Of a stretch of DNA of 64,000 bases, positions 45,310 to 64,000 are shown piece after piece. Below the pieces are notes generated by a model, which had not been told where the DNA came from, did not search any database, and worked only from the letters and a program-made list of their open reading frames with translations. Source of the DNA: an uncultured Phycisphaerales bacterium. Lineage in GTDB: Bacteria; Planctomycetota; Phycisphaerae; Phycisphaerales; SM1A02. The stretch is taken from contig CASICI010000001.1 in the NCBI GenBank assembly GCA_949373145.1, forward strand, positions 1 through 64,000. The letters are read 5' to 3'. The position numbers and the translations under genes were made by a program. Numbering within the stretch: the first letter of the stretch is position 1; each line of letters starts with the position of its first letter.

Positions 45310-46494
45310 ATGGCGATGTTCGCATACAGCGCGCGTGACCGGGAGGGCCGCAAGGTCTCCGGCCGCATGGAAGCCTCGAATCAGCAGGCGGCTCTCTTCG
45401 AGCTCGAGTCTCAGGGGCTCGCTCCGATGGAACTGTCGACCGCCTCGGCGTCGGCAGGCAGCACCCGCTCGTCAAGCGCTCGGGTCATGTCCCGGTTCTA
45501 CCGCCAGCTGTCCGATCTTCTGAAGTCCGGAGTGCCACTGCTTCGTTCGTTGCGACTTCTGGGCGGCATGAAATCAAACGCCCGATTGTCCGAGGTGATT
45601 CTTCGCGTGGCCGATTCCGTGGAAGACGGGGAACGTCTCGCCGATGCCATGACGCGACACGAGCAGGTCTTTCCGGACATACAGGTCTCCATGATCCGGG
45701 CCGGTGAACGGGCCGGTTTTCTCGACGAAGCCCTCGAACGACTGGGCCTGTTTCTGGAACGCCGTGCCGAACTCCGTTCGAAGGTGGTCGGGAACATGAT
45801 CTATCCGATCGTGCTCCTCACGGTCGGCGCGGGAATCGTCATCGCGGCCCTGGTCTTCTTCGTACCCCGCTTCGAGGAGTTCTATGCGGACATGGAGCTG
45901 CCTCTGGCGACACGGATCCTGATGGCATCATCGGACTTCGTGATCGGGTGGTGGCCCGTGATCCTTCTGGCCTCTGCAGGCCTTTTCTTCTTTTTCTTCT
46001 CTCGGCGCCATGATCCCACGCAGCGCCTTCGTGTCGAGCGGATCAATCTGGGTCTTCCGCTCATCGGTCCTCTGACACGATCATTGGCGTGTGCGCGGTT
46101 CTGTCGCATTCTCGGAACGATGCTGGAAAACGGGATTCCACTCGTCGAATCGATGAAGATCGCTCGAAGCTCGATCGGAAGTGCCACCCTCGAGCAGGCT
46201 CTGGCCGACGCGGTCGATGCCGTCGAATCAGGTGAAACACTCGCCCAACCGCTCGCCCAAAGTGATTTCATGGAGGAGGACGTCCTTGAGATGATCTCGG
46301 TCGGCGAATCCGCCAACAATCTCGCGCTCGTCCTGGTGAAGGTCGCCGAGACACTTGAGGATCGAGTCGACCGCCAGCTCTCACTCGCCGTCAAACTGAT
46401 GGAACCACTGCTTCTGCTTCTTCTGGCGGGTGTGGTTCTCTTCATTTTCATGTCCTTGATCGTTCCGATGCTTCAAATGAGTTCCAATCTCTGA
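45310..46494 (+). CDS. gspF: Type II secretion system inner-membrane protein F
   Basis: 394 residues. GspF/PilC family platform protein. The N-terminal part (FAYSARDREGRKVSGRMEA) is the conserved GspF start. Two repeated cytoplasmic helical domains (about 70-190 and 270-390, with FYRQLSDLLKSGVPLLRSL and FCRILGTMLENGIPLVESM) are each followed by membrane helices at about 168-190, 220-240 and 370-393 (LLLLLLAGVVLFIFMSLIVPML). It anchors the assembly ATPase and the pseudopilus at the inner membrane. It is the first gene of a run F-G-H-I-J-K-L-M. The usual gspE ATPase gene is not upstream; the preceding gene is the unrelated PEP-CTERM-like protein. Confidence 0.95.
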   Translation: MAMFAYSARDREGRKVSGRMEASNQQAALFELESQGLAPMELSTASASAGSTRSSSARVMSRFYRQLSDLLKSGVPLLRSLRLLGGMKSNARLSEVILRVADSVEDGERLADAMTRHEQVFPDIQVSMIRAGERAGFLDEALERLGLFLERRAELRSKVVGNMIYPIVLLTVGAGIVIAALVFFVPRFEEFYADMELPLATRILMASSDFVIGWWPVILLASAGLFFFFFSRRHDPTQRLRVERINLGLPLIGPLTRSLACARFCRILGTMLENGIPLVESMKIARSSIGSATLEQALADAVDAVESGETLAQPLAQSDFMEEDVLEMISVGESANNLALVLVKVAETLEDRVDRQLSLAVKLMEPLLLLLLAGVVLFIFMSLIVPMLQMSSNL

Positions 46495-46598: not shown

Positions 46599-47132
46599 AT
46601 GACCACAGTCAATCGCCTGAACACCGAACGCCGTCGTCGAAACACTCGTCGCGGCTTCACCATCATCGAACTTCTGATCGTGATTGGAATTCTGCTCGCG
46701 ATCGGTGGCATCGTGTTGGTCAACGTCATCGGAGCCCAGGACCGCGCCGACGTCGGAGTGACCAAGGTGCAGATGCAGGGCATTGAAGATGGCCTGCAAC
46801 GATTCAGGGTCGACATGAAGCGCTGGCCCTCCGAAGAGGAGGGTGTCGCCGTCCTGTGGTCTTCGGGTGGACTCGAAGACGAAGAGGACTCCTCCAAATG
46901 GGGCGGTCCCTATCTGCAGAAGCCCGCACCGAACGATCAGTGGGGCAGTGCCTGGGTCTATCGAAACCCTTCCGAGATCGAGGGTCTCTCCTACGACCTG
47001 ATCTCGATCGGACCTGATCGTGAAGAAGGTACCGATGACGACCTCAACATCCACGACTCGATCGCCGGTGAAGATGGTTCGCTCGATGATGAATTCTCCG
47101 ACTTCGCCTCCACTCCGAGCGAGAACGGGTGA
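46599..47132 (+). CDS. gspG: Type II secretion system major pseudopilin G
   Basis: 177 residues, with GGAGAG before the start codon. The basic leader ends RRG, cleaved before FTIIELLIVIGILLAIGGI; Glu at +5 is present. The body matches the major pseudopilin: DRADVGVTKVQMQGIEDGLQ, then DMKRWPSEEEGVAVLW, WGGPYLQKPAPNDQWGSAW and the Ca-binding loop region SYDLISIGPDREEGTDDD. The last 30 residues are an extra acidic tail. It forms the shaft of the pseudopilus that pushes substrates through the secretin. The next gene begins 4 bases after the stop codon. Confidence 0.96.
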   Translation: MTTVNRLNTERRRRNTRRGFTIIELLIVIGILLAIGGIVLVNVIGAQDRADVGVTKVQMQGIEDGLQRFRVDMKRWPSEEEGVAVLWSSGGLEDEEDSSKWGGPYLQKPAPNDQWGSAWVYRNPSEIEGLSYDLISIGPDREEGTDDDLNIHDSIAGEDGSLDDEFSDFASTPSENG

Positions 47133-47136
47133 TCCG

Positions 47137-47853
47137 ATGGTTCGCGTGGCACGCGGACTGACGCTCATCGAGATTCTGGTCGCGCTGGGCATCGTCATCG
47201 CGCTCGCCGCTCTGGTGCTGCCCACGCTTTCATGGATGTCCCGCTTTCGTCCCCTCGACACTGCGTGTGAAGATGTTCAGGCGCTCTATCTGCGTGCACG
47301 TGCGCACGCCGCGGTCAATGGCCGTCCGGTTCGGATCCAACTCTCTCAATCCACGCTCGAAGCCGACTGGTTCGACGTCGAAGCACGCTCGCTCGACGGC
47401 ACCGATGAGCCCGGCGGCTCGGGTGACGATGGTGGTGGGGCGTCCGAGTCATCCTTTCCACTGGCCACCTGGTCCAGGGTCGGCCTTCAGGACGAGGTGC
47501 GTTATCAGGCACGATCCCGGTTTCTTTCAGCGGCATCCGACGAGTCGTCATCCCTGATTGAGTCGGATGATCTCGTTCTCGACGACGTGCTCGACACCAC
47601 GGTGCTTCTTGCGATTCTTCTTCCTGATGGAACGGCCATCTCGCGAGAAGAACTGGTTCTCAGCGATGCCATGGGTCGCACCCGGGGCATCCTGATCGAT
47701 GAGTTGACCGGTCGGGTCACCATCATCGAATCGGACACGATGCCCTCCGAGAATGATCGGCCAGCGAGCGAATCCGAGAGTGCGCCTCTTCGCGATCCCG
47801 CCGACTCGACCATGGATGATCTCACGGTGTCCGACGGGCGGGTGGGTTCGTGA
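47137..47853 (+). CDS. gspH: Type II secretion minor pseudopilin H-like
   Basis: 238 residues from the ATG at 47137. The prepilin signal is VARG before LTLIEILVALGIVIALAAL, with Glu at +5. The following region (TACEDVQALYLRARAHAAVNGRPVRIQL) is the GspH/FimT pattern of a long helix then strands. The C-terminal half is unusually acidic and Ser-rich, longer than in proteobacterial GspH. It would sit in the tip or shaft of the pseudopilus. The GTG of the next gene overlaps its stop codon. Confidence 0.85.
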   Translation: MVRVARGLTLIEILVALGIVIALAALVLPTLSWMSRFRPLDTACEDVQALYLRARAHAAVNGRPVRIQLSQSTLEADWFDVEARSLDGTDEPGGSGDDGGGASESSFPLATWSRVGLQDEVRYQARSRFLSAASDESSSLIESDDLVLDDVLDTTVLLAILLPDGTAISREELVLSDAMGRTRGILIDELTGRVTIIESDTMPSENDRPASESESAPLRDPADSTMDDLTVSDGRVGS

Positions 47854-48362
47854 GTCGTCGTGGTGGGCTTCTGCTCGAGGTCATGATCTCGATGGCACTC
47901 TTCATCGGTGCCGCGCTCGTCGTGCTCCGGGTGATGGGTGATGCACGAACCTCCCTGCAACGCTCGGCGGTTCTTCAGCGGGCGGTCGATCTCGCGATGA
48001 CACGCGTGGGTGAACTCGAACTCGGATTGGTCTCACTCGCCGATCTTCGTGGAATGGGACGACAGGAGCGTGGCGAGTTCGAGGACCTCGAGGCCAGCGC
48101 CGAGCCCCTCGGCATACGAGTCCGAACCGAACGAACGCAATGGGATGGACTGGTGCTTCTGGAACTCGACGTTCTCGATCCGGAACGAACCGATTCGACC
48201 GGAGACGATTTCGTGGTCCACAGCGTGCGAACGCTGGTGCGACTTTCCGAGGAGACCTTCGAAGACTTCGAGGATGATCCGATTCTCGATGATCTTCCTG
48301 AAACCGACGGCTCGACGCTCTTCGATGCCGAAATGGATCGCTTCGAGGGGGTGGTTCGATGA
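47850..48362 (+). CDS. gspI: Type II secretion minor pseudopilin I-like
   Basis: 170 residues from a GTG overlapping the previous stop codon (GTGA). The prepilin signal is MSRRG before GLLLEVMISMALFIGAALVV; Glu at +5 is conserved. The phrase LLEVMISMALF is close to the GspI consensus LLEVLVALAIF. The soluble part is short and acidic (FEDFEDDPILDDL). Position between H and J supports the call. Predicted to form the pseudopilus tip complex with J and K. It overlaps gspJ by 4 bases (ATGA). Confidence 0.8.
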   Translation: MSRRGGLLLEVMISMALFIGAALVVLRVMGDARTSLQRSAVLQRAVDLAMTRVGELELGLVSLADLRGMGRQERGEFEDLEASAEPLGIRVRTERTQWDGLVLLELDVLDPERTDSTGDDFVVHSVRTLVRLSEETFEDFEDDPILDDLPETDGSTLFDAEMDRFEGVVR

Positions 48363-49117
48363 TCAGTCGTTCCACCGTGCGTGGGTTCAGTCTGCTCGAG
48401 ACCCTGATCGCGCTCGGGCTCATCGGAGTTCTGATCGGAACCATCGGTCTTTTCGTGAACCAGATCGCGGCCAGCCGGACGCAACTCCGTGCGTCGACGG
48501 GTCGGGACGCGTTTGCAACCGCGATCTTCGACGGTCTTGAAACGGCGTTGATGACCGCGATCGCCCGGACTGGAACGGGGTCCCCGGGGATCATCGGAAC
48601 ATCAAGCGGGGTCTCGGTCGCGCATGATGGTGTGGTGGTGTCTCGAGTCTTCGGTGACATTCCGCAGATGGTGTTCGCCCCTGAATCCACCCTCCGCTTC
48701 GAGTTCGATGAGTCTTCGGGAGCGGTCCGCCTCAGTCGTGATGATTCGTCCTCCCCCGTGAGCGAGACGCCACTCGGTGCCGTCAGGTTTCGGTATCTCT
48801 CGAACGGTGACTGGTTCAGCTCATGGAACTCATTCGACAGCGGAGGACTTCCTGCCGCGATCGAATGTTCGATCTGGTGGATCGCCCCCTTCGAAGACGA
48901 GACGTCGCTCGGGGACTTCGAATCCGATCTCGTCGGTTCGGATGGAGATGACCTTGGAGATGAACCTGGTGATGACATGCCATCGAATCCACCTGACCGA
49001 ATTCGATTGATGCGTGTTCCAGACGGCGGTGTCTTCGAAACCGATGACGCTCTCGGTACGAACGCGGAGGCGACATCCTCGTTTCAGGACGAGTCGTTTG
49101 TCGGAGGTGATGAATGA
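48359..49117 (+). CDS. gspJ: Type II secretion minor pseudopilin J-like
   Basis: 252 residues. The prepilin signal is TVRG before FSLLETLIALGLIGVLIGT, Glu at +5 present. The longer soluble part (about 210 residues, beta-rich, then an Asp/Gly-rich region near LGDEPGDDMPSNP) fits GspJ, which is larger than H and I. Identity rests on the fold pattern and on position before gspK. Start and stop codons overlap both neighbours by 4 bases, so I, J and K should be translated in a coupled way. Confidence 0.8.
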   Translation: MISRSTVRGFSLLETLIALGLIGVLIGTIGLFVNQIAASRTQLRASTGRDAFATAIFDGLETALMTAIARTGTGSPGIIGTSSGVSVAHDGVVVSRVFGDIPQMVFAPESTLRFEFDESSGAVRLSRDDSSSPVSETPLGAVRFRYLSNGDWFSSWNSFDSGGLPAAIECSIWWIAPFEDETSLGDFESDLVGSDGDDLGDEPGDDMPSNPPDRIRLMRVPDGGVFETDDALGTNAEATSSFQDESFVGGDE

Positions 49118-50439
49118 TGTCGCCTTCGCATGAAGTCCGTCGTGGATTCGCACTCATCGCGGTCCTTCTCGTGATCGGTGCGAGCACCCTCGCGGTGACG
49201 ATCTTTCTCAGGTGGTCGAGCGCTGAAATCGCGATCGCCTCCGCCAGTGCGGAACGTTCTCGTTCCCGACTGCTGGTCGATTCCGGTGTCGCCATCGTTC
49301 TTTCGGAACTTGAAGCCCAGCGCGAAGTCATTCTCGAAGGACGGCGACCCCAACTCGAGCGGACCTACGTCGTGCATGAAGGGGCGGTCGTTTCGAGCAT
49401 CATCCGTCTGCTCTCGGTCGGCCCAGAACGGGAACCGCTCGTACCCGTCGGTGGTCTTCTTGATCTGAATCGTGCGACATCGGATCAACTCCAGGCGACC
49501 GGGGCGCTCACTCAGGATCAGGCGGATCGGATCATCGAGACCCGTTCGACGATGTCCGGGGGTCGATATCGCTCGCTCGAGGATCTTCTGAGCATCACCT
49601 CGGATGATGGGAGCTTCATCGTCACTCCGGAGATGATCTACGGCCCTCTCGAGGATCTTCGTCCCGCGCGCGAGGTGCTCGCGCTGGAGGAGGATCGCGG
49701 CGAGCGGGCTCTTCGAGCACTCGGGACCACCCGCACCTCCCGCTTGTCCGATCTCCTGACCGTTCATTCCTTCGAGCCCATGGTGCAACGAGACGGCACC
49801 TGGCGCATCGACATCTCGGTGCCCTATTCAGAGGAGCTCGGCCTTCGTTTCGACCGGACCTTCGGCGAAGGTGCGGGGGAGGCTCTGCGCAGAATCAAGA
49901 CGAGTGTCGATCTGAAAGATGATGTGACGCTCGGTGCGGTCGTCGCGCAGGTGGTGGACATCGCTGATCAGGCGCGCACCCTCGACACGCTCACCGCCGA
50001 AGGTCGTTGGGCGTCGGGCAGGATCGACATCAACACGGCGCCGTTGGAGGTTCTTCAGACTCTGCCCGGACTTGACTCGGAATCGGCGTCCGCGCTGGTG
50101 GACGTGCGTGATTCACTGAATGCCTCCGCCCAGGCGGACATCACGTGGCCACGCGATCAAAATCTCATCACGCCCAGCACCATGTACGGTCTCTACGGCC
50201 TCATCACGAATCGCACCTGGCTCTGGAAGCTTCGATTCGCAGCCGGCACCGTGCCTTCCGAGGACACCGACTCGGCACTCGAAAACCCGGTGATGGTCGA
50301 ACTGGTGGTGGATCTCTCCGGACCACGTCCTCGTCTTGCTTCGTTGCGAGACATCGGAAGACTCGATCTCGCCGCTCGGCTGTTGGAACAGGATTCCCCT
50401 CGCCGAAGCCGCACCATTCGCGACCACTTCCGACGATGA
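49114..50439 (+). CDS. gspK: Type II secretion pseudopilin K-like (helix-hairpin-helix), probable frameshift at the end
   Basis: 441 residues as read. The signal EVRRG precedes FALIAVLLVIGASTLAV; there is no Glu at +5, which is the mark of GspK, the pseudopilus tip cap. Two helix-hairpin-helix-like segments typical of GspK follow: LLDLNRATSDQLQATGAL (about 111-128) and RIDINTAPLEVLQTLPGL (about 303-320). The last residues SPRRSRTIRDHFRR look out of frame. Shifting by one at a CCCC run (about 50397) continues with PLAEAAPFATTSDDERV and a Glu/Ser/Pro-rich tail to a stop codon at 50635, a better end. So the true C-terminus is probably at 50635, 45 bases before the next gene. Confidence 0.85.
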   Translation: MMSPSHEVRRGFALIAVLLVIGASTLAVTIFLRWSSAEIAIASASAERSRSRLLVDSGVAIVLSELEAQREVILEGRRPQLERTYVVHEGAVVSSIIRLLSVGPEREPLVPVGGLLDLNRATSDQLQATGALTQDQADRIIETRSTMSGGRYRSLEDLLSITSDDGSFIVTPEMIYGPLEDLRPAREVLALEEDRGERALRALGTTRTSRLSDLLTVHSFEPMVQRDGTWRIDISVPYSEELGLRFDRTFGEGAGEALRRIKTSVDLKDDVTLGAVVAQVVDIADQARTLDTLTAEGRWASGRIDINTAPLEVLQTLPGLDSESASALVDVRDSLNASAQADITWPRDQNLITPSTMYGLYGLITNRTWLWKLRFAAGTVPSEDTDSALENPVMVELVVDLSGPRPRLASLRDIGRLDLAARLLEQDSPRRSRTIRDHFRR

Positions 50440-50679: not shown

Positions 50680-52164
50680 TGGCCACTCGAAACTTCATCG
50701 CGATCGATTTTCTCCCACCGCCGTCTCCGAGCGATCGAAGCGGTGGCGCATCGTGGTGGAATCAAGGTCCTGCGTTCGCTTTCCGACGAACTCCCCGAAG
50801 GAATCACGTCAGGATGATGCCTCCGCGCTGGGCCGTTGGATCGGACGCCGTCTTCGAGAGTCGGGCCTCCAGCGCGGACAACGCGATCTTCTCCGTCAAC
50901 CGTGAACATGCGGTCACGCGCAGGCTCACCCTGCCCACCACGAATTCGGATGAACTCCCCTCCATGGTCGAATTGTCCTTGAAGAAGGGATCTCCCCATC
51001 GATTCCGATCAGGCGGTGATCGACTTCATCGAGGTGGACCGCCAGGAGACGACGAGTGTCGTCCTTGCCTGCGCGATTCCTCGCGAGGTCCTCACTCGTG
51101 TCTCGGACGTCGCGGAAGCCGCCGGTGTCACCGTCGCCTCGATCTCCCTCCGTTGTTTCGGAACGGCCAAGCTGCTCGGATCCCTTCCCGAAAACCAGGG
51201 ACGCAATGCGCTTGCGATCGATCTGGGTGCCGGTGGATTCGAATTCGTCATCGCGAACGACGAATCGATCGGCTTCGCGCGCGGTGTCGAAGTGCTTCCC
51301 GGTTCCGAGGAGTCCGAAGAGGTTCTGGTCACCGAGATCAGGCGCACCTGGATCAGTCACACGCTTGCCGATGGAAGCAACGAACAGATCGAATCAGGCG
51401 TGCTTCTTGCCACATCCGATGTGGCGCACCGGCTGGAGCTTGATGTCAGTCGCGCTCTGGGTCTGGATGTGATCGCGCTTGACGCCCATCCCATGGTCCG
51501 CGTGCCCGCGGACTTCGACTCCGACACCTGGCCGCTCGCCGGGTTGTTGTTGACGCGCTTTCAGGGTTCGGCGGCCATCAACTTCGCGGCACCTCGCAAG
51601 GCACCCGATCTTCAGGCCCGGCGTCGACAACGCGTGCTGCTCGTTCTGGGTCTGGTTCTGGTCGCCGCCTTCGGTGGTTGGACCCTTGGAAACAGGTCTC
51701 TTTCGTCCACTCGTGGCTCCAATGCCGACCTCGCCGCCAAAGCGAAGTCCGCGTTGAAGGAGTACCACCGAAACCGCCGTGACGGGTTCCGCCTTGAGCA
51801 TCTCGAGGCATGGGCCGCGATCGATCCCGACTGGTTGAGTCATGTCGAGTCGATACGAAGCTTCATTCCGGATCCCTCCCGAGTGGTGCTTGACGATCTT
51901 TCATTCGCACTCGTCACCGGTGGGATCGATCACGAGAAGCGCACGGGTTTCGGTGAAGTCGTTGAAGTACGCATGGAGATCGCCGGTGAATCGATCGATC
52001 GCGCGACCATCGATGGCGTGCGCGCCCAGCTGGTCGCTGAAGAGACCGTTCGATTGAAATCGAACGGCTCCGAAAAAACCGGAGGTCGCCGCTTGCAGGT
52101 GCCTTTCGACTTTCAACTTCGCACCGATGTGGAAAGTGCAACCGAATCGGGGGGTGGGTCGTGA
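50680..52164 (+). CDS. PilM/GspL-like cytoplasmic actin-fold protein, frameshifted at the N-terminus
   Basis: Start ATG at 50680 (ATRNFIAIDF, the beginning of an actin-like fold). The next 330 bases change frame at least four times: near 50717 (TTTTCTCC), 50812, 50890 and 50985. The joined reading gives HRRLRAIEAVAHRGGIKVLR, then DDASALGRWIGRRLRESGL, FSVNREHAVTRRLTLP and VIDFIEVDRQETTSVVLACA. From 51016 on the frame is clean: ALAIDLGAGGFEFVIAND (phosphate-binding strand) and one membrane helix at about nt 51623-51690 (VLLVLGLVLVAAFGGWTLG). A periplasmic part with a ferredoxin-like end follows. This is the GspL layout (cytoplasmic PilM-like domain, helix, periplasmic domain), which links the ATPase to the platform. 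About 490 residues in all. Confidence 0.75.
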
Positions 52165-53153
52165 GCGAATTCATCCGACCATTCACCCGCGGGCGAGGTC
52201 TCATTCTCACTCTGATTCTGATGTTCATCCTCGTCGGTGTGCTGGGCTACTTCCAGGGATCGGGTCGACTGAACGGGCAGTTGGACGCGCTCGCGGAGAA
52301 GCGTACGACCTACATCAACGTGATGAACACGGTCCGAGCTCAACGGGAGAACCTCCCGGAATCGCGTGCACGCGAAACCGCCCTGGTCGAGCGAACCCTG
52401 GGCCCCGACGTCGAATCCGTCGACAGTCGGATCAGGCAACGATTGTTCGCACTCGCTCAGTCGAGCGGACTCGGACGAATCTCGGTCTCGACTCAGGGCG
52501 TCACCGCTCGCAGGACCCCCGCACGAAGCGAATTTCGTCGAAGTGGTGACGAGAAGACGCTTCGGGACGAAGTTGATTTCGTGGAGTTGACCGCCTCCCT
52601 GTCCGGGCGCGGCACCTACCCGCAGGCCATCGATCTGGTGGCTCGAATTCACTCCGATGGGTGGTTGAAGCGAGTCACTGAAACGAACTTCAATCCGGAT
52701 CCGAAGGGCGAATTCGTCGATGTCATGGTGCGGGTGACCACCATTTTCGTTCCGGATCGCGAGCATGAGGAAGCCATCGTCGAGGGTGTGTACGACGATT
52801 CCAGACTTCGCTCGATTCTGACTTCGAATCCCTTCGCGCTTCCGAAGCCACCCCCGGTCGAAGTCGTCTCGACTCCCCGGCCCGTGACGCCTGAGCCTGC
52901 GAAGGTCGCGCCCCCGGGATTCCCCTACGCCCTCTGGATGTTGACCGGTGCGGTGGTCGGGCCTGATGGACCTGAAGCCTGGGTTCGCAACACCAGGACC
53001 AATGAACGGCGCTCGCTTTCAGCCGGTGATCGTCTTGGAAAGGCTGTTTTCGTCGATGTGGACGGTGAACACGCGGTCTTCACGATCCAGTCACGGACCT
53101 TCAGGGTGCGAACCGGACGTTCCCTCGAGAACGCCTCGAAGCCTTCCCGGTAG
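52161..53153 (+). CDS. GspM/PilO-like protein with C-terminal GspC-type HR-like domain
   Basis: 330 residues from a GTG overlapping the previous stop codon. One N-terminal membrane helix (LILTLILMFILVGVLGYF, about 14-31) is followed by a coiled-coil-like stretch and an alpha-beta domain (VDFVELTASLSGRGTYPQAI, IHSDGWLKRVTETNFN), the PilO/GspM pattern. Then comes a Pro-rich linker (about 225-255) and a last domain, WMLTGAVVGPDGPEAWVRNT, RLGKAVFVDVDGEHAVFTI. That is the small beta-barrel pattern of the GspC homology region or PilP. In known systems these are separate proteins. The HR domain contacts the secretin N0 domain, and the gene immediately downstream encodes a secretin-like protein. The domain call is by pattern. 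Confidence 0.65.
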   Translation: MSEFIRPFTRGRGLILTLILMFILVGVLGYFQGSGRLNGQLDALAEKRTTYINVMNTVRAQRENLPESRARETALVERTLGPDVESVDSRIRQRLFALAQSSGLGRISVSTQGVTARRTPARSEFRRSGDEKTLRDEVDFVELTASLSGRGTYPQAIDLVARIHSDGWLKRVTETNFNPDPKGEFVDVMVRVTTIFVPDREHEEAIVEGVYDDSRLRSILTSNPFALPKPPPVEVVSTPRPVTPEPAKVAPPGFPYALWMLTGAVVGPDGPEAWVRNTRTNERRSLSAGDRLGKAVFVDVDGEHAVFTIQSRTFRVRTGRSLENASKPSR

Positions 53154-53392: not shown

Positions 53393-56300
53393 ATGTCGGA
53401 TGCCCGCTTTGGATGGCTGGCCCGGTTGTTCCCTGTGACTGGAACGCTGTGCTGTGCACTTTGGTTCGTTGGTTCGTCGGCTGCGGCGTCTGCGTCGAGC
53501 GAGGTGCTTCAGGACGAGACCGCCGAGACCGAGGTCGTTGAGACCGACGGTCTTGATGACTCGGTCGAAGTCAGGTTCAACTTCAAGGATCAGACCTGGG
53601 ACGAGATCATCGATTTCTTCTCACGGTCGACCGGTCTTCCGGTGGTTCGTGAAACGGAGGTCCCGCAGGGCACGGTCACGTACATCTACCCGGAGCCCTA
53701 TCCGCTGCCCGAAGCCCTCGAGACCTTGAACATCCTGCTTCAGACCCAGGGTGTGATGGTCCGTCGCGAACGTGATCGCCTGTACCTTCAGAAGCTTTCC
53801 GAAATGCAGCGCGAGAACATTCCGACCTTCGTCGGCAAGCTGCCCTCCGAAGTCACCGACGACCAGGTCGTCACGGTCCTGATCCCGCTGGTGAACGCCA
53901 CACCCAGCACCATCGCCGAACAACTCGCCAACCTCGTCGCCAGCTATGGCTCGGTGACCGCGCTGCCACGGCAGAATGCCGTGATCGTCGTGGAAACCGC
54001 CGCACAGATCAGGCGCATCCAGAAGATCATCGATGAGATCGACCGTGAGGATGTCGAGAACCTTCTCGAATACATCCCCGTTCGTCATTCCACCGCGGTC
54101 GAGATGGTGAAGTCCCTGACGTCGCTCATGAGCGAGCGGGTCGTGAAGTACGTCGTCAATGCCAAGGGCAAGCAGATCAAGGTCGAGGACGAGGAACTTC
54201 CCGGTCTGAAGATCACCCCCGATGAACGCACCAACGCGATCATCGTGAAGGGAACGCGAGCTCGAATCGACCAGCTGAAGGAGACCATCCTCCTGCTCGA
54301 CGTCCCGCAGGGTTCCGTCGGTGGGGCACGGATGATGCGAACGGTTTCGGTGGGTCGAGTCGCCCCTCAGGCCGCCGCGACGAAACTGCGTGAGTTCTAT
54401 GAATCGGTTTCCGAGGAGATGCGTCCGACCGTGGTGGCACTCGATGATGTCGACAAGATCACGATCGTCGGTGATTCCGTTCTGGTCGAGGATGGCATCA
54501 CGCTGCTTTCCGATCTCGATGATCTCCCCGGCGGGTCATCATCCGCCTCCGGACAGAGCACCGAACTTCTGGCCATCACGCATGGGACGCCTGCTTCCGT
54601 GATCGATGCGATCAAGCCGATGCTCGGCTCCCGCACCTCTCGAAACCTGCTTCTTCTTCCCGGGCCCGATGGTGCATCGATCATCGTCACCGGTTCCTCC
54701 GCCGAGATCTCGAGAGTCCGAGGGATCCTGGATCTGATCGACCGACCTTCCAGCGTCGAGAGAGCGGTCGAGTTCCTCACCATCGAATCCAGCGATCCCC
54801 AGCGGGCGATTCGGCGTGCCACGGCGATCTACAACTCTCTTCACGGAGAATCCGATCCTCTCTATACGATGAAGATCGAATTCGATCAGTCGACGCGCGG
54901 ACTCACCCTGACCGGTGGCGTCATCGCCATCGAGCGTTTTCGAAAGGCGCTCACCCAGGCGGAAGCGATGATCATCGCACCTCGGACCGTTCGTCAGTTG
55001 TCCGTGACGAATGTGTCACCAAGCGCGATCGAGGCGCGGATGCAGTCGATGGCGGCCAAGCTCCTCGACCCCAGAGACGGCACCCGATTCGAAGCGCCTC
55101 GCTTCGAATCGATCGATGAACTCGGACTTCTGATCGTGGAATCGGATCCGGATGATCTCGAGCGGATCACCACGCTGCTCGCGCAGTTGGACGTGATCGA
55201 TGCCGGTCGACGTTCGATGATGATCGATCTCGAAGTCGCACGAGCGGCCGATGTGAAGACACAGCTCGAGGCGATGATCGAGGCCGCGCCCATCGTGGTG
55301 TCCGGTCGCACGATGCCTGCGCCCACCATCACCGAAATCGAACAGATCAACGCCCTGCGCGTCCTCGGTGACGAAGAGACCCTCGCCTTCATCGGCAGGT
55401 ACGCCGCCCAGCTGGACACCATCGAGATGTCGGACATGCCACCGATGCGTTTTCTTCAGGTGCGGACCGCGGATGTTCAGAATCTCGCTCGCTCGCTGAC
55501 TCAGGGATATGCGATGCGTTCCGCCGAGGAGCGAGCTTCGAAGCCGGTCCGGATCGAACCCGATCTGCAGACCAACTCCCTGGTGATCATCGCGCACCCC
55601 GAAGTGTTCGAGGAGATCGCGTCGATCGTCACTCAGCTGAACGACGTCAATCGTCTCGATGCGGAGGATCGGGAGATCAGAATCTTCCCGCTTCGTGTCG
55701 CCCGCGCGGAAGAGCTTGCTCGAACGCTGGATGACATGTTCCCGCAGCCACCTCTGCCACGTGATTCCCGTGGCCGGCCCCGTCCTGAACTCCAGCAGCC
55801 ACGTGAAGTCGTGGTGCGTGCCGATCGTCAGACCAATTCGATCATCGTCGATGCCCCGACGCAGCGAATGGCCGGATTTCAGAAACTCGTCGATCAGCTC
55901 GATCGGACCCAGCTCGCGGACGAATCCGAGATTCGCACCTGGAAGCTCCTTCGAAGCGAATTGGACTCGGTCGCGAGAACGCTCACCCGCATCGCGGATT
56001 CGGGCGGGTTCGGAAGCACCGACGCTGCCGGCTCCGCATCGGTCATGATCTCGACCGAGCCAGCGAGCGGCACGCTTCTGGTGTCAGGTCCCCCCGAGAT
56101 CTTCGCCCAGATCGATGAGATCATCACCGCGCTCGAGGCGGATGACGCCACTCCTCGCACCGGCCTGCGATTCTTCAGACTTCAGACCGCTCGTGCCATG
56201 GAACTGGAACCTCTCGTCCGCGAGATTCTTTCCGCACGTCTTCGCGAGGAGATCCCAGGTGGTGATGCTCAGGTCGACGGTCTGCTTGAAGTCAGCTCCG

Positions 56301-59300
56301 ATCGCAAGACCAACATGCTCATCATCCAGGCGCCCGAATCGGTGATGCCGATCGCCGCCGAAGTGATCGAACAACTCGATTCCGGCAAGGGTGTCCTCGC
56401 CGATCCGGTCGTTCGAGTCCGGGCTCTGAATTTCGCGGATCCAGCGATCGTCGCCGAAGCCTTGCGGGAGACCCTGCCCACGGTCACCAGTCCGGTCACG
56501 GGATCCCCTATCGAGATGCGATTCGTCGCCGCTCGAGGATCGAATGCCCTGATCATGGTGGGACTGACCGAGGATCTCGATCTGATCGATGCCATGATCG
56601 AACCTCTCGATGCGACCCCGGCGACCGACTCGGTCGATGCCCAGACCTTCGAATTGAAGCATGCGGAAGCGCGTGAGATCGCACCCATCATCGAACGAAT
56701 GCTCGTCGACCAGATCAACAACGACCCACGGGTTCTGATCGAACGAATCAGACGAAGTCGTGGTCAGGTCGCCGGCATGCCTCGAATCAAGGTCGACAGT
56801 GATCCGCGAACCAACAGCCTCGTGGTCAGCGGACCCAAGCAGATGGTCGTGCTCGCCCGGTCCCTGATCGAGAAGCTCGACCGTCCCGAAGATTCCGCCG
56901 GGCGTGTCCAGATCACCTTCACCCCGAAAAACGCTGATCCGGCTCGTCTCGTTCCCATGATCGAACGGGTGGCGACGGCTGCTGGAATCGGCATCGGTCG
57001 GCCGGAACTCGAACTCGTCGCCATTCCTGAAGCAGGGACCATCCTGGTCTTCGGTTCTCAGGACGACGTCACGCAGGTCTCTCAACTCCTCACCGAGCTC
57101 GATGCACGCTCCGCGATGCCTTCGGTGGATCTCAAGATCGTTGAAGTGACGCACGCCGATGGCGCTGCGATCGCATCCACGTTGCAGCGACTTCTTTCCG
57201 ATCGCAGTCGCTGGCCGGCCACGCTGCGCAACGCCATCGCTTCCGGAATCACGGTCGATGCTCCGACGGTCAGCCTCGAGAACGGCACCAACCGACTGCT
57301 GGTGACGGCACCGGCCTCGCTCATGCCGGTCGCGGACGCCTTGATCGCCCAACTCGATCAGCCATCCGATCTCACTCAGAAGGAAGTTCGCGTGTATCCG
57401 CTGATGCAGGCTCAGGCCGTCGAGGTCGCGGGCGCGCTGGGTTCGGCCATGGAGGCGCTTGGTGCGTTCACCACCGGCAGAGAGAGGATTTCGATCATCG
57501 CGGAGCCCTCGAGCAACTCGATCGTGGTCACGGGATCACCCAACCGCCAGGTCGAGGTGGCCCAGCTGCTCACCGGATTCGAGTCCGGAATCAGCAGCGA
57601 CGGAACGTCCGTTCGAACCATTCTGCTGAAGTATGCACGAGCTGAAGTCGTCGCCCCCATGGTGTCGAAGCTGATCGTGAGTCAGAAGACGCAGACCAAT
57701 GAACGCGTTCCCTCCTACATGCGTCGCTACATGGCCAGCCTCAACGAGGACTCGAATCCCACCGTGAAGGTGGAAGCCGATTCCCGCCTGAACGCCGTGG
57801 TGGTCGCCGGCCCCGCATCGATGCTCGCCGTCGCCCAGAAGGCGATCGAGCAACTTGATGTCGATCCCGCATCCGATCAGTCCGCGCGTCGCAGCGTCCG
57901 CGTGCTCACCATCGCCAACGCCGACGCCGACCAGCTGGCCGAGAGCCTGCGGTCACTCTTCGCCGATGGTGAGGATGGGCAGCAGCCTCCCGTCATCGAG
58001 GTCGATCTCGCGAGCAACGCACTTCTGGTGCGTGCGACCACCGAACAGTTCGACGTGATCACCCGGGTCACTCGTGACGTCGACGATGCCACCATGACCG
58101 GATCGCGTGAGATTCGCACGATTCCGATCGACGGTTCACGCGCCGATGCGGATGACGTGGCACGACTTCTGGAACGCATGCTCGAACGTGGTGACGGTTC
58201 CAAGGACGGTGTCGAGATCATTCCCCTCGATGAGTTGCTGCGTCGATATGGAACCTCGACGACTCCGAAGACGACTCCGAAGACGACTCCGAAGACGAAC
58301 TCTGAGACGACACCGGACTCCGAGTCCCGATCGCAGGCCGGCCTTCCTGGTGGGCGTGCGTCGTTGATCGCGGCGGTGCTGCTTGGATCGCAGGAGACCG
58401 TCGAACAGAAGGATGCTTCGGATTCAGACGTCATCATCGCGGTCGACCCCGAGACCAACAGCCTGATCGTCATGGGAAGCCCGCGCGCCGTGGAGCGCAT
58501 TCAAGCTCTGGCGACCCAGGCACAGGACGAACTGCCTGATGCGGGCACCACGGTTCGGACGATTCCCCTCCCCGAGGGAGTCTCACCGACCCAGCTTCGG
58601 AATCTCGTGTCACAGACGCTCCGGTCGATCCGACCTTCCGGAGGAAACGCCGGCGACCTCGCTCGTCGAGTCGGTGTCATCGCCGATGAAAACGCTCGCG
58701 CACTGGTCATCACCGCAAGTGATGCCGACTTCGAGACCGTCGCGTCTCTGATCGCGGCCTATGCACGACAGCCTGCCGCGGAGGAACTCACCTTGCGCAG
58801 CTATTCCCTGGAGAATGTGTCGTCACGTCGGGCGGCCGACGGACTGTCGACGCTGCTCCGTCGAGGAAAGCGCCCCGAAGTGGAACCTGCGGTCCGGTTC
58901 ACCCTGGACGGACGCGAGACCTCGTTCGACACCCGCGACGTCCACGTGATCTCCGATCTCGCCACGAATTCCCTGATGGTGCTCGCGCCGGTCGAGGCGT
59001 TCGACTTCATCGACGACTATCTGAAGATGCTCGATCAGGAGACGAGCATCGCCTACAGCACGATCAAGACCTACGAGATCCGATTCGCGCAAGCCAACGA
59101 GTTGTCACGCACGCTCGACAGGATCTTCAGTGCGAGGGTCCGTGGTCAGCGAAGCACCGGCACCAGGTTGATCGAACCCGAATTCGTGACCGATGCCCGC
59201 ACCAACTCCTTGATCGTCACCGCGTCCGCGGATCAGTTCAAGGAAGTCGAGGCGCTTCTGGGCACGCTCGACCGGGAGACCGGTCTCGAGAAGGAGCCCT

Positions 59301-62300
59301 TGACGGTGCTCGAACTCGCCGCCGCTCGCCCCAGTTCGATCAGCCGTGTGCTGGATCGGGTCGTGATCGGCGACGACCAGTCGATCCGTGCCAGCACCAT
59401 GATCGTTCCCGATGACGAGGCCGGCGTGCTCGTGGTCCGCGCCACGGCACCTGTTCTTTCGGAGATCAGGACGCTCCTTTCGGAACTCGATCGCGGTTCC
59501 GCCGCGGAGTTCCCCGTTCGTTCGATCGTGCTGGAACGTGCCGACGCCGGCGTCGTGGCCAGTGTCATCCAGAGGTTCTACGACGACAGAGCGCGGATCG
59601 CATCCGGTGCCCGGGGCCGGAAGCTCAAGCGTGAGGTCGCCGTGGTCGGTGACTCCGCCACTTCGACACTGCTGATCTCCGCAACCGAGGAAGAGTTCGA
59701 CGAGGTTCGTGATCTGGTCGCCAGACTTGATTCGGTCGAAGCCACCAAGGGTCTCGAGTTTCGTGTGTTTCCTCTCAAGCACGCACGTGCCACCGAGGTC
59801 AACTCCATCCTCCAGGAGGTCTTCGAGCCCATCATGTGGATGCGACGTGAAGGCCGGGGATCCGATGATCAGGTCATGACGGCCGTGATCGAACAGATGA
59901 ACGCCATTCTCGTCACCGGAAACGGCGAAATCTTCGACACCGTCGCACAGGTCTTCGCCGCGGTCGATCAGCCCGCGACCCAGGGGACGCAGCAGGTGGT
60001 GCGCGTCTACACGCTTCGCTCCGGCGAGGTGCGGGTTGCAAGAGACATGGTTCGTGAGGCGCTCGGGGTGAACACCAAGTGGTGGAACCAGGAGAAGAGC
60101 GGCAATGCCGTGATCGAAGCCGACACCAGCTCGCGCGTGCTCATCGTCGCGGCCTCCGAAGATGATCAGGCGCTGGCGAAGGAGGTCGTTGACACTCTGA
60201 ATGAAGCAGTCTCCATTCCCGAGCAGAGCGTCACCGTGCTGGCACTCGAGTACGCACCAGCCCGGGAAGTGGCCAGAACCCTCTTGAACTTCCTGCGTCA
60301 GCAGGCGGAGACGAGCGGAAAGCCTCGTTCCACCGTTTCGATCTCATCGAGCGACTCGGCGAACACGCTTCTCGTGTCGGCCTCCAAGGATGAGACCGCG
60401 ACCATCAAGGACCTCGTCTCCCGCATCGACATGCCTGATTCCGCCGGTGATCGCTCGATCGAGATTCTGCCTCTCGGACGCGGTGAAGCCGTCGAGATCG
60501 CCCGACTCGTCACGCAGCAGTTTCCCCGGCGATCGGGAACGCCCGGCGTCCTCGTGACCGCTGATGCCCGGACGAACTCATTGATCATCAATGCGCCAAA
60601 GGTGGAGTTCGCCCAGGTGCAGGCGCTCGTCGAGAAGCTCGATGGTCCACCCATGCGTGAAGAGACCCTCATCAGAACCTTCGCGTTGGACACCGCGGAT
60701 GCCGATCAGGCCATGAGTGTCCTGAAACAGGCGCTCGCACTCGACGCCGAAGGACGAACGACCGGTGCCACCGTGAAGGTGGAGGGTTCGGATGACGCCG
60801 CGGTCGAGGTCATCGCCCGAATCGTCTCGGACACCCGCTCCAACTCTTTGGTGGTGGCGGCCACGAGCGAGTCCTTCCCGGTGATCGAACAGCTCATCGA
60901 ACGACTCGAAGGTGCCCCCTCGGTGGCTTCGGTCGAATACCGGATCATCCCCCTGAAGCATGCCGAAGCCAGAGAGGTCACGCTCAATCTCGACATCGTC
61001 TTCCGAAATCGCGCAGGCCGCGATCTTGCTCCCTCCATCGACTGGACCCGGGACAATCAACTGGTCGTCGGCGCGACACCGGAACAGTTCGAGATGATAG
61101 AAACCATTCTCGACCAGCTCGACAAGCCGGGAGCCGTGGCGCGTCTCACGGAGTTCCTGCCGCTTGAATTCGCGGAAGCCGAGAAGGTCCAGAGCGCCTT
61201 GAGCTACTTCTACGGACCCTTCGCGGTCGGGGTCGACGATCCGGCGAAGAAGAACGTCCAGATCGCTGCCGACCTCGCCACCAATTCACTGGTGATCAGT
61301 GCCGATGCGAACGAATGGCCTGGAATCAAGTCCCTGATAGAGAAGCTCGACAGCGAGCTCTACGACTCCTCGTTGCAGCTGACGGTGCTTGCACTGAATT
61401 ATGCGGATGCGCGAAGTGTCGCTCGTGCGATCAATGGTGCGTTTCGTGGCCCCATCGAACGAAAGTCCCAGCGGGAACAGGGGCGTCGGCAGAACGACCG
61501 TGGCGACCGCGGTGATCGCGATGAACCGACCGCGCCCACGATTCTGGTCGAAGCCGAGGAATGGGTGAGTGCCGCTCCGGAAGAACAGACCAACACCATC
61601 GTGGTTTCCGCCAGCCGGAAGAATCTGGAAAAGATCAAGGGCATCATCGCGCAACTCGACGTCGCGGACTTCATGAAGCTGCCTCCGCCGCGCCTGATCC
61701 CCGTGATCAACGGGTCACCAGCTCAGCTGGCCGACAGTCTCCGGGAACTCTACGCGGCGGGTGACAACCGAGGTGGTGCCACCACCCGGATCATCGCCGA
61801 CGATCTGAGTGGGACCATCATCGTCCGTGCGGATGACCAGGAATACGCACAGATTCTCACGCTTGCCGAGGCCATCCAGCAGAAGGCCGATGCCCACGGG
61901 CTTTCAGTCCACGTCCTCGCGCTCGAGAATGCCGACGCTTCGAACATCGTCGGATCGATCCGATCCGCCTTCACGGCCCAGGCCCAGCGAACCGAGTCAC
62001 CACTCTCCCTCGAAGCGGACCTCGTCAGCAACTCGGTGGTGGTGGCCTGCACCGGTGCGATGTGGTCGGAGATTCAGGACACGATTCGACAGATGGATCG
62101 AATGCGCCCCTCCGGCGGGCAGGGTGTCTTCATCATCGAACTCGAGAACGTTCCCGCGGTGGAAGTTCTCCGGGTGATCGAGTCGATCGGACTCGATGCG
62201 TCCTCCGCGGACGGCGCAGCCGGTCGCCTGGTGGTCGAACCTGTGCGAGCCACGGCGCTCGAAGGACGGAACGCGCTTCTCGTCGCCGCGAATCCCGCCG

Positions 62301-64000
62301 ATCAGGAGACGCTCGTCTCGATCGCACGCTCCCTCGACCAGACCACGCCGAGGGATGGTGAGACCAGTCGTGTCGCACTCGTTCCCCTGAAGAACCTTCC
62401 CGCAAGCAATGTCGCGGACACGCTTCGTTCACTCTTCGATCCCAACGCTTCCGAAGCGGGTCATCCCATGGCGGAAGCCCTTCGAGAACAGGCCCGCAGA
62501 CTCAAGCTGGTCGCACGAGATCTCGGATCCCCCGAAGCGGACATTGATCTGACCCAGCCGGTCCGACTGGTGCCCAATGATGAGTCAAACCTCCTGGTGG
62601 TCGTTTCCTCCGAAGGAAACGTGCGAGCCGTCGAGCAACTTGCCGGATTGCTCGACCGGCTCCCATCAAGTGGTGCCGCAACGGTCCGACTCTTCCCGCT
62701 GGAGAACATCGGTGCGAGTGAATTCCTGCGCATCGTTCGTGACCTCTATGCCGAAGGCGAGAGTCTGGGGGATGCCCCCGGCGGTCTGGTCCGAGGCGTT
62801 CCATCGGGTGCGGTGGGCCAGGCGCTCATGGAGAACATGGCGCTCACCACCGATGATCGAACCAACTCAGTCATCGCAGCCGGAAGCGAGGATGGCGTCG
62901 CCTTCATCGAGGTCCTCGTCAAGCGACTGGACTCCGAGATCGGACTGGGCTGGGTCGAGGCTCGAGTCCTGCCGCTGCGATTCGCCGATGCCGAGGAGAT
63001 CGCGGAACTCATTGAAGAGGTCCTGGTCGACGGTTCCACGGAACTGCCCGCTGCGGTCCCACTTCAGAATCAAGCAGCGAGATTGCGTGTGGGTGGCGGC
63101 GCCTCCCGACGCGAATCCGAGATCTTCGTGCCCATGGCGCGGCTGGTGATTCGACCTGACAAGGGAACCAATTCACTGCTGGTGGTCGGCACTCCTTCGA
63201 ACATCGGTGTGATCCAGGGACTTCTCGCCATGCTCGATGTCGAAGCCGCGTTCCCCGGCGCACTGGTTCGTATCTATCCGGTTGAGAACGCCTCCGCGGC
63301 GCGCCTCGCCGTGGTCCTGGAACAGCTCTTCGAATCTCAGATCCGGGCGGGGACGATGCGGGAGGACGACCGCGTCGAGATCATTCCCGACGAGCGGACC
63401 AACGCACTCGTGGTGAGCACCACTGGTCGAAGCTTCGCGATTCTCGAACAGCTCCTCAAGACGCTCGATACCAGCATGCCTCCCGACCTTCGTGAGATCA
63501 AGACCATCGAACTGGTCAACGCCTCGGCGACGCGAATCGCCTCGATCGTCCAGCGAATGATGGATGCACGGGTCGATCGTCTGCGCGAAGTCCAGCCTGA
63601 GACCGCGGAACTCGAACGTGTGCTGGTTCTCTCCGACGAACGTACCAATGCCCTGATCGTCGCCGCAGGTGAGGACACCTTTGAAACCGTGAGTCGTCTC
63701 GCCCGCGATCTCGATGAAGCGCCCGACATGATGCACGGTGACATCGCGGTTCTTCCCGTCGAGACCGGTGCGGTCGATCGACTCTCTCAGGCGATCGAAC
63801 GACTCATGGAACGCCGATACGCGGAACTGCCCGGAGACGTGGCCCGCGGTCGTCGCCCCCTGGTCATCCCCGATGCCAGAACGAGCAGCCTGCTGGTGGC
63901 GGCCGATCCCGAGGATCTGTCCTCCATACGCGGCCTGATCTCCCAGCTTGCCGAAGTCCCCACGAATCCTGCGGTCGGTCTGCACGTCCTTCCGATCGAC
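53393..64000 (+). CDS. gspD: Giant secretin-like protein with tandem N1/NolW modules, partial at the right edge
   Basis: The frame opens at the ATG at 53393 (AAAGGAG 7 bases upstream) and runs without a stop codon for 3536 codons to the window end. I checked the codon phase at several places; there is no frameshift. Residues 1-36 are a signal peptide. Residues 58-140 are an N0/STN-like domain (VRFNFKDQTWDEIIDFFS, LETLNILLQTQGVMV). About 41 modules of 65-145 residues follow, each starting like VRVYPLxxAxAxxVA and ending like DxRTNSLIVxAxxxxxxxI then LIxxLD, which is the ring-forming N1/NolW fold. A normal GspD has one N0 and three such modules and is about 650-750 residues. The outer-membrane pore domain is not in the window, so secretin is inferred. 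It follows the type II operon by 240 bases and may have its own promoter; TAATAT at 53341 is a weak candidate. Confidence 0.85.
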   Translation, partial: MSDARFGWLARLFPVTGTLCCALWFVGSSAAASASSEVLQDETAETEVVETDGLDDSVEVRFNFKDQTWDEIIDFFSRSTGLPVVRETEVPQGTVTYIYPEPYPLPEALETLNILLQTQGVMVRRERDRLYLQKLSEMQRENIPTFVGKLPSEVTDDQVVTVLIPLVNATPSTIAEQLANLVASYGSVTALPRQNAVIVVETAAQIRRIQKIIDEIDREDVENLLEYIPVRHSTAVEMVKSLTSLMSERVVKYVVNAKGKQIKVEDEELPGLKITPDERTNAIIVKGTRARIDQLKETILLLDVPQGSVGGARMMRTVSVGRVAPQAAATKLREFYESVSEEMRPTVVALDDVDKITIVGDSVLVEDGITLLSDLDDLPGGSSSASGQSTELLAITHGTPASVIDAIKPMLGSRTSRNLLLLPGPDGASIIVTGSSAEISRVRGILDLIDRPSSVERAVEFLTIESSDPQRAIRRATAIYNSLHGESDPLYTMKIEFDQSTRGLTLTGGVIAIERFRKALTQAEAMIIAPRTVRQLSVTNVSPSAIEARMQSMAAKLLDPRDGTRFEAPRFESIDELGLLIVESDPDDLERITTLLAQLDVIDAGRRSMMIDLEVARAADVKTQLEAMIEAAPIVVSGRTMPAPTITEIEQINALRVLGDEETLAFIGRYAAQLDTIEMSDMPPMRFLQVRTADVQNLARSLTQGYAMRSAEERASKPVRIEPDLQTNSLVIIAHPEVFEEIASIVTQLNDVNRLDAEDREIRIFPLRVARAEELARTLDDMFPQPPLPRDSRGRPRPELQQPREVVVRADRQTNSIIVDAPTQRMAGFQKLVDQLDRTQLADESEIRTWKLLRSELDSVARTLTRIADSGGFGSTDAAGSASVMISTEPASGTLLVSGPPEIFAQIDEIITALEADDATPRTGLRFFRLQTARAMELEPLVREILSARLREEIPGGDAQVDGLLEVSSDRKTNMLIIQAPESVMPIAAEVIEQLDSGKGVLADPVVRVRALNFADPAIVAEALRETLPTVTSPVTGSPIEMRFVAARGSNALIMVGLTEDLDLIDAMIEPLDATPATDSVDAQTFELKHAEAREIAPIIERMLVDQINNDPRVLIERIRRSRGQVAGMPRIKVDSDPRTNSLVVSGPKQMVVLARSLIEKLDRPEDSAGRVQITFTPKNADPARLVPMIERVATAAGIGIGRPELELVAIPEAGTILVFGSQDDVTQVSQLLTELDARSAMPSVDLKIVEVTHADGAAIASTLQRLLSDRSRWPATLRNAIASGITVDAPTVSLENGTNRLLVTAPASLMPVADALIAQLDQPSDLTQKEVRVYPLMQAQAVEVAGALGSAMEALGAFTTGRERISIIAEPSSNSIVVTGSPNRQVEVAQLLTGFESGISSDGTSVRTILLKYARAEVVAPMVSKLIVSQKTQTNERVPSYMRRYMASLNEDSNPTVKVEADSRLNAVVVAGPASMLAVAQKAIEQLDVDPASDQSARRSVRVLTIANADADQLAESLRSLFADGEDGQQPPVIEVDLASNALLVRATTEQFDVITRVTRDVDDATMTGSREIRTIPIDGSRADADDVARLLERMLERGDGSKDGVEIIPLDELLRRYGTSTTPKTTPKTTPKTNSETTPDSESRSQAGLPGGRASLIAAVLLGSQETVEQKDASDSDVIIAVDPETNSLIVMGSPRAVERIQALATQAQDELPDAGTTVRTIPLPEGVSPTQLRNLVSQTLRSIRPSGGNAGDLARRVGVIADENARALVITASDADFETVASLIAAYARQPAAEELTLRSYSLENVSSRRAADGLSTLLRRGKRPEVEPAVRFTLDGRETSFDTRDVHVISDLATNSLMVLAPVEAFDFIDDYLKMLDQETSIAYSTIKTYEIRFAQANELSRTLDRIFSARVRGQRSTGTRLIEPEFVTDARTNSLIVTASADQFKEVEALLGTLDRETGLEKEPLTVLELAAARPSSISRVLDRVVIGDDQSIRASTMIVPDDEAGVLVVRATAPVLSEIRTLLSELDRGSAAEFPVRSIVLERADAGVVASVIQRFYDDRARIASGARGRKLKREVAVVGDSATSTLLISATEEEFDEVRDLVARLDSVEATKGLEFRVFPLKHARATEVNSILQEVFEPIMWMRREGRGSDDQVMTAVIEQMNAILVTGNGEIFDTVAQVFAAVDQPATQGTQQVVRVYTLRSGEVRVARDMVREALGVNTKWWNQEKSGNAVIEADTSSRVLIVAASEDDQALAKEVVDTLNEAVSIPEQSVTVLALEYAPAREVARTLLNFLRQQAETSGKPRSTVSISSSDSANTLLVSASKDETATIKDLVSRIDMPDSAGDRSIEILPLGRGEAVEIARLVTQQFPRRSGTPGVLVTADARTNSLIINAPKVEFAQVQALVEKLDGPPMREETLIRTFALDTADADQAMSVLKQALALDAEGRTTGATVKVEGSDDAAVEVIARIVSDTRSNSLVVAATSESFPVIEQLIERLEGAPSVASVEYRIIPLKHAEAREVTLNLDIVFRNRAGRDLAPSIDWTRDNQLVVGATPEQFEMIETILDQLDKPGAVARLTEFLPLEFAEAEKVQSALSYFYGPFAVGVDDPAKKNVQIAADLATNSLVISADANEWPGIKSLIEKLDSELYDSSLQLTVLALNYADARSVARAINGAFRGPIERKSQREQGRRQNDRGDRGDRDEPTAPTILVEAEEWVSAAPEEQTNTIVVSASRKNLEKIKGIIAQLDVADFMKLPPPRLIPVINGSPAQLADSLRELYAAGDNRGGATTRIIADDLSGTIIVRADDQEYAQILTLAEAIQQKADAHGLSVHVLALENADASNIVGSIRSAFTAQAQRTESPLSLEADLVSNSVVVACTGAMWSEIQDTIRQMDRMRPSGGQGVFIIELENVPAVEVLRVIESIGLDASSADGAAGRLVVEPVRATALEGRNALLVAANPADQETLVSIARSLDQTTPRDGETSRVALVPLKNLPASNVADTLRSLFDPNASEAGHPMAEALREQARRLKLVARDLGSPEADIDLTQPVRLVPNDESNLLVVVSSEGNVRAVEQLAGLLDRLPSSGAATVRLFPLENIGASEFLRIVRDLYAEGESLGDAPGGLVRGVPSGAVGQALMENMALTTDDRTNSVIAAGSEDGVAFIEVLVKRLDSEIGLGWVEARVLPLRFADAEEIAELIEEVLVDGSTELPAAVPLQNQAARLRVGGGASRRESEIFVPMARLVIRPDKGTNSLLVVGTPSNIGVIQGLLAMLDVEAAFPGALVRIYPVENASAARLAVVLEQLFESQIRAGTMREDDRVEIIPDERTNALVVSTTGRSFAILEQLLKTLDTSMPPDLREIKTIELVNASATRIASIVQRMMDARVDRLREVQPETAELERVLVLSDERTNALIVAAGEDTFETVSRLARDLDEAPDMMHGDIAVLPVETGAVDRLSQAIERLMERRYAELPGDVARGRRPLVIPDARTSSLLVAADPEDLSSIRGLISQLAEVPTNPAVGLHVLPID
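53870..64000 (+). repeat. Array of about 41 secretin N1/NolW-like modules
   Basis: Approximate module starts: 53870, 54065, 54335, 54563, 54767, 54989, 55216, 55445, 55676, 55931, 56165, 56411, 56639, 56903, 57125, 57386, 57611, 57897, 58112, 58553, 58793, 59063, 59300, 59516, 59759, 59999, 60230, 60458, 60671, 60938, 61148, 61379, 61688, 61907, 62126, 62365, 62684, 62960, 63266, 63497, 63743, and a 42nd at 63971. The 58553 module begins after the long insert-bearing one at 58112. Mean spacing is about 246 bases. Modules 3-7, 14 and 23 have weak ends and were placed by the leading strand and helix pattern. Most others keep RTNSLIV or a close variant. DNA similarity between modules is low, so the array is old rather than recently amplified. 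Confidence 0.8.
58259..58318 (+). repeat. 12-bp tandem repeat inside the giant secretin-like gene
   Basis: Three exact copies of ACGACTCCGAAG (58259-58294) are followed by two degenerate ones (ACGAACTCTGAG, ACGACACCGGAC). In frame they encode Thr-Thr-Pro-Lys units, then Ser/Glu-rich sequence. They form a flexible insert within one module (the unit starting at 58112), which makes that module the longest in the array. The in-frame length of 12 bases means copy changes would not break the gene. Confidence 0.95.

Follow-up and report, generated by a model that had tools for sequence, protein, structure and literature searches.

A giant type II secretion GspD with 46 tandem N modules in an uncultured Phycisphaerales bacterium

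Assembly into 12-15-fold rings in the outer membrane is a known property of the secretin family. Well-studied members carry one to six ring-forming modules, and these rings have so far been viewed as a short vestibule beneath the outer-membrane pore. The mean length of secretins is 555 ± 151 aa (PMC4827864). Thermus thermophilus PilQ, which is among the largest characterised (757 aa), serves the type IV pilus and DNA uptake, and its six stacked rings (N0-N5) form a tube of 350 Å that spans a wide periplasm (PMC5745081). The secretin analysed here shares with PilQ the possession of extra N modules and may share its long periplasmic tube, but lies far beyond the known size range of these proteins. 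Neither giant secretins nor a Phycisphaerae GspD were found described in full-text searches of the open-access literature.

The DNA stretch analysed (the window, 64,000 nucleotides) corresponds to positions 1-64000 of contig C1 in a draft genome (G000) of 2.10 Mb in 42 contigs, which is 75.5% complete. As the initial annotation had described, a frame of 3,536 codons with a signal peptide at its start is open at the edge of the window (Table 1). The start codon is an ATG preceded by AAAGGAG, 7 nt 5'. On the contig, the same frame continues without internal stops to position 66226 and encodes a product of 4,277 aa (∼464 kDa). The N0-like domain noticed earlier occupies aa 63-123; the Pfam N0 model matches it weakly, and aa 62-303 match the crystal structure of GspD N0-N1-N2 (3ezj) with an E value of 3e-8 in phmmer. 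The earlier count of about 41 complete modules in the window proved to be exactly 41, according to a profile derived from the modules of the protein itself. In the whole protein, this profile recognizes 46 N modules (45 at E<0.01 and one at 0.11), while Pfam Secretin_N matches 39 separate stretches (1141 bits), or 36 when limited to the portion inside the window. Extension along the contig and HMM searching also located a full-length Secretin pore (PF00263, E 4e-44) at the C-terminus. Including 20 homologues, 21 complete genes were available, each with 34-56 modules, and hence the giant array is not a chance occurrence. The median module period in these 21 proteins is 78 residues.

Table 1. 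Features of the giant gspD gene and its operon. Positions refer to the window unless marked as contig positions.
Feature	Position	Strand	Basis or remark
gspF, inner-membrane platform protein	45310..46494	+	Pfam T2SSF E 1.9e-55; NCBIfam GspF best, 333 bits (equivalog cut-off 424)
gspG, major pseudopilin	46599..47132	+	PF08334 T2SSG E 3.2e-24
gspH-like minor pseudopilin	47020..47853	+	NCBIfam GspH E 4.2e-5 (below cut-off; match begins at residue 45); true start within ORF
gspI-like minor pseudopilin	47850..48362	+	position, prepilin-like N-terminus; homologue 5' of giant in L071
gspJ-like minor pseudopilin	48359..49117	+	Pfam N_methyl E 1.7e-4; homologue 5' of giant in L071
gspK-like minor pseudopilin	49114..50439	+	PF03934 T2SSK E 3e-8
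gspL-like gene	51016..52164	+	position; no Pfam match; homologue 5' of giant in 13/20 relatives
gspM-like gene	52161..53153	+	NCBIfam GspM E 0.0098, below cut-off; homologue adjoins giant in 16/20 relatives
giant gspD, N-terminal 3,536 codons	53393..64000	+	ORF open at window edge; continues to contig position 66226
signal peptide, approximate	53393..53494	+	charged start, hydrophobic stretch, Ala-rich end
N0 domain (GspD-like)	53579..53761	+	Pfam gspD_N0 E 0.003 (below cut-off); phmmer to 3ezj
41 complete tandem N modules	53879..63952	+	profile from protein's own modules
module 42, beginning only in window	63983..64000	+	modules 43-46 and pore outside window
last module (46), end	contig 65326
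Secretin pore	contig 65522-66022
lipoprotein, 168 aa	contig C1:66252-66755 (L024:13252-13755)		beyond window; lipobox LLGC; directly 3' of giant

In terms of family membership, which the initial annotation had left at the level of secretins, the giant is specifically the GspD of a type II secretion system (T2SS). The NCBIfam gspD equivalog cut-off was passed, with the best stretch at aa 3755-4213 (the total score is inflated by repeated matches), and GspD structures were the best hits in a PDB profile search (E 1e-63 to 1e-50). The C-terminus matched GspD cryo-EM structures at E 6.5e-40, and in Foldseek GspD was the top hit for the C-terminal part (E 4e-25). When modules 27-36 were folded alone, Foldseek returned the N domains of GspD and XcpQ, and secretins filled nearly all of the top places (best E 5e-8). 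Single modules superpose on the GspD N1 domain at 1.5 Å over 63-64 residues. The N1-like fold suggested earlier is thus recovered in the predicted module structures (Foldseek, VIA-align). The AlphaFold models, calculated from ortholog alignments, show a repeating beta-alpha-beta-beta-alpha pattern at moderate confidence (mean pLDDT 73 for modules 27-36 and 67 for the last four modules with the pore), and their pTM values of 0.31 and 0.38 leave the orientation between modules undefined.

The giant thus shares with GspD, XcpQ and PulD an N0 domain followed by KH-like N modules (the latter above the Pfam cut-off, N0 below it), a C-terminal Secretin pore, short linkers, and platform and pseudopilin genes alongside. 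It differs from them in its length and in carrying 46 N modules versus 3. Since two or three N domains follow N0 in a typical GspD, the protein is regarded as a variant. Identity with PilQ was considered and rejected: no PilM, PilN, PilO or PilP neighbours accompany the giant, and PilN- and PilO-like genes (weak matches) flank another secretin of the genome, a type IV pilus (PilQ-type) protein of 748 aa on contig C10. The same genome encodes a Tad secretin of 505 aa with RcpC/CpaB, T2SSE and two T2SSF neighbours.

The giant gspD is the last gene of the T2SS operon gspF-G-H-I-J-K-L-M-D, in which all genes lie on the same strand, and the order K-L-M-D is kept in relatives. The gspE genes sit on other contigs of the genome. 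A gene beyond the window (contig C1:67453-68817; L024:14453-15817) was rejected as a gspE candidate, and encodes a CPBP-type intramembrane protease. In contrast to the GspD/XcpQ/PulD systems, searches of five genomes with a giant did not detect GspC (PF11356), the usual partner of N0, which divergence could hide. The lipoprotein gene directly following the giant is found in the same place in 14 of 20 relatives; its product matched no family model and is a possible pilotin, which would bind the C-terminal tail and bring the pore end into the outer membrane. Directly before gspF, an exported protein with a PEP-CTERM-like end is encoded (window 44429-45265). Together with the CPBP-type protease, this protein may mark sorted substrates of the giant-GspD system. 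The gspK-like protein also matches the model of Verru_Chthon cassette protein A (E 2.4e-5), a hint that the Verru_Chthon cassettes of Verrucomicrobia may belong to related pseudopilin systems. Elsewhere in the window (21377-24178, minus strand), an exported protein of 933 aa carries dockerin-like D-x-D-G-D repeats near its N-terminus.

The conservation of the array was analyzed module by module. In three other genomes, all 46 modules find their reciprocal best match in the same, colinear order (∼10-14 would be expected at random), and the other genomes differ by gains or losses of blocks of up to ∼8 modules. Between the planctomycete array of family f5 and a Verrucomicrobia-labelled array, 31 of 33 matches are colinear (random, ∼9), while between the most distant families (L024 versus L170) the figure is 6 of 12, which is at the level of chance. 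The mean identity among the modules of one chain is 28%, versus 41-63% for orthologous modules of different genera and families. A comparison of two species of the genus over 4,193 codons gave a dN/dS of 0.074, with values between 0.02 and 0.15 in every block; the array is under purifying selection along its whole length. These values and the colinear one-to-one orthology rule out a decaying or freely expanding repeat and, together with the low identity within the chain, identify the modules as old and individually specialised rather than recently repeated. Dissimilar adjacent repeats with conservation at each position are also known from titin-like tandem-domain proteins, although these offer an analogy only, having another fold and no channel. 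One array, L060 (G016), shows a recent block duplication, in which modules 5-7 appear again as 9-11 (52-57% identity) and module 14 as 19 (63%).

The source genome is a draft, about 75% complete, and an error of assembly or frame, or a decayed gene, might be suspected behind so long an array. This explanation has a negligible probability: five one-contig genomes (G013, G035, G046, G062 and G094) carry a gene of the same architecture, which excludes an assembly artefact, and both the absence of internal stops and the dN/dS value speak against decay.

In the same order, 61 genomes were examined, and secretin frames of 3,300-5,086 aa were observed in five families. In a sample of 120 genomes from the class, many further families possess such frames, up to 6,169 aa; the largest example, L173 (G099), contains 63 modules. 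In total, homologues with 22-63 modules are distributed across many Phycisphaerae families and a Verrucomicrobiota lineage. In the phylum sample outside the class, frames reach ∼1,413 aa, with 5-9 modules in those examined. All other bacteria retrieved by a scan of a genome collection have at most five modules, the exceptions being a Pirellulales contig with 8, one contig labelled 'bacterium' with 31, and Verrucomicrobia-labelled contigs (L086, L089 and L091). For one of these Verrucomicrobia-labelled contigs, 59 related genomes (from the set G351-G411) were available; 29 of them carry the pore, mostly in frames near 4,000 aa, and thus a second phylum appears to have giants.

In the pore tree, the giants, the split forms described below and the forms with 5-9 modules fall into one clade (SH-aLRT 99). 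The Verrucomicrobia-labelled sequences are placed beside Phycisphaerae family f5, a position which suggests transfer, with shared ancestry as the alternative. The planctomycete secretins with 5-9 N modules (L143 and L185-L187; 1,242-1,461 aa) are of intermediate size and would be either ancestral or reduced. Secretins of ∼1.5-1.7 kaa in some relatives (L205-L208; 1,560-1,730 aa) were also considered as intermediates and were discarded, as the own-module profile found no N module in them.

In families f19, f21 and f17, the array is divided among several proteins. The pore protein carries only 13-16 modules, and directly 5' of it, on the same strand, are one or two N-module proteins with 22-25 or 9+14 modules. 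Each complete upstream protein has its own apparent signal peptide. N0 belongs to the first protein, as seen in f19 and f21; the last one bears the pore. Where complete, the totals are 35-41 modules, i.e., within the single-chain range, and when a split array is concatenated, 17 of its 20 matches to a single-chain array are colinear. Order, ends and totals are all kept. The most straightforward interpretation is that the complete module set acts as a single object, whether covalently linked or not. Most of the N-module-only proteins adjoining a shorter giant secretin (L190-L195, from G080, G100, G132, G117, G088 and G071) end in an Arg-rich tail, e.g., RGRRR, perhaps a joint between stacked pieces.

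The linkers between modules are short, with a median of 7 residues and a 10-90% range of 5-8 over 950 junctions. Their length matches that of the canonical GspD N2-N3 linker (5-7 residues), which favours vertical stacking as in GspD. A precedent is Thermus PilQ, where additional N domains go with additional stacked rings (PMC5745081). Ring stacking gains further support from the one-to-one conservation of the modules and from the split arrays; moreover, low similarity within the chain combined with high conservation of each module is what self-recognition of rings in register would require. From the protein, its linkers, its conservation and the split arrays, we infer that the vestibule of this T2SS GspD has probably grown from N0-N1-N2-N3 to N0 plus 46 modules, forming a stacked tube of ∼47 rings. 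Some 13-15 copies would assemble in register, with each module making its own ring by finding its own kind among the 13-15 neighbouring chains. The 47 rings would then form a stack whose N0 end meets the inner-membrane platform and whose other end is the outer-membrane pore, and folded exoproteins and the pseudopilus would enter the tube. At 2.5-4 nm per ring, where the upper value derives from the length of PilQ, the tube would measure ∼120-200 nm.

Tandem copies of a ring-forming domain could, on general reasoning, also pair sideways, such that a single chain closes a ring or rings by itself in a helical or wound scaffold. We consider this very improbable, because the linkers equal those of vertically stacked GspD domains and the pore domain would still require 12-15 chains. 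Module counts (22-63) were inspected for clustering at multiples of 12-15, and none was found.

Some observations speak against the stacked tube. An upright structure of at least 120 nm does not fit into an ordinary periplasm, and the PilQ and Tad secretins of the same genome are of ordinary size. The undefined geometry between modules in the AlphaFold models and the undetected GspC also count against it. An upright tube would require the T2SS to occupy special sites; otherwise, the array has another shape. One such shape would be a multimeric GspD pore with rings only near the pore and N0, the remainder serving as a flexible or folded-back tether, a spring or a docking platform for exoproteins in a periplasm of variable width. 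The short Tad and PilQ secretins of the same genome are consistent with this arrangement, as are the lack of a fixed orientation between modules in the models, the tolerated gains and losses of blocks, and the non-covalent chain of the split lineages. Conversely, only 1 of the 950 linkers exceeds 30 residues, every block of modules is under purifying selection, and both the identity and the order of the modules are kept across families, whereas a tether has no need of 46 distinct domains. Separate exported pieces, furthermore, cannot tether unless bound to each other. On balance, an array acting mainly as a tether seems unlikely.

The initial annotation had suggested that a stacked tube could span a very deep periplasm, as planctomycetes have, or form a surface structure. 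The planctomycete periplasm can indeed be greatly enlarged (PMC5394234), and in Thermus the length of PilQ goes with a wide periplasm (PMC5745081). However, the Tad and PilQ secretins of the same genome are of normal size, giants occur in a Verrucomicrobiota lineage as well, and the planctomycete secretins sampled outside the class are far shorter. Where crateriform structures were reported, there is little distance between the inner and outer membranes (PMC5394234), and a link to these structures was rejected for this lineage, since the described Phycisphaeraceae lack them (PMC8882080). A uniformly deep periplasm is therefore an improbable explanation. The proposal of a surface structure was likewise not upheld: the array follows the signal peptide and precedes the pore, and this region is on the periplasmic side in every solved secretin.

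Returning to the stacked tube, we see about an even chance that the giant GspD forms a conduit of ∼47 individually specified rings, more than 100 nm in length and of 6-7 MDa, in some lineages possibly composed of two or three stacked proteins, which would serve the T2SS across or along a compartment that the other secretins of the cell do not cross. Among bacterial envelope channels built from one polypeptide repeated around an axis, such a conduit would be the longest known. Its vestibule, ∼10 times longer than those described, would have been preserved at the level of single rings as many families diverged, while being separable into proteins. With the giants, it becomes possible to test which factors determine how long a secretin tube is, and how the pseudopilus and T2SS substrates get across an unusual envelope; the natural series of 1, 3, 5, 9, 14, 22, 31, 46 and 63 modules would allow ring number to be compared with envelope anatomy. 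The maintenance of the array, module by module, across a class of planctomycetes and part of a second phylum suggests a secretion conduit ∼10 times longer than any described.
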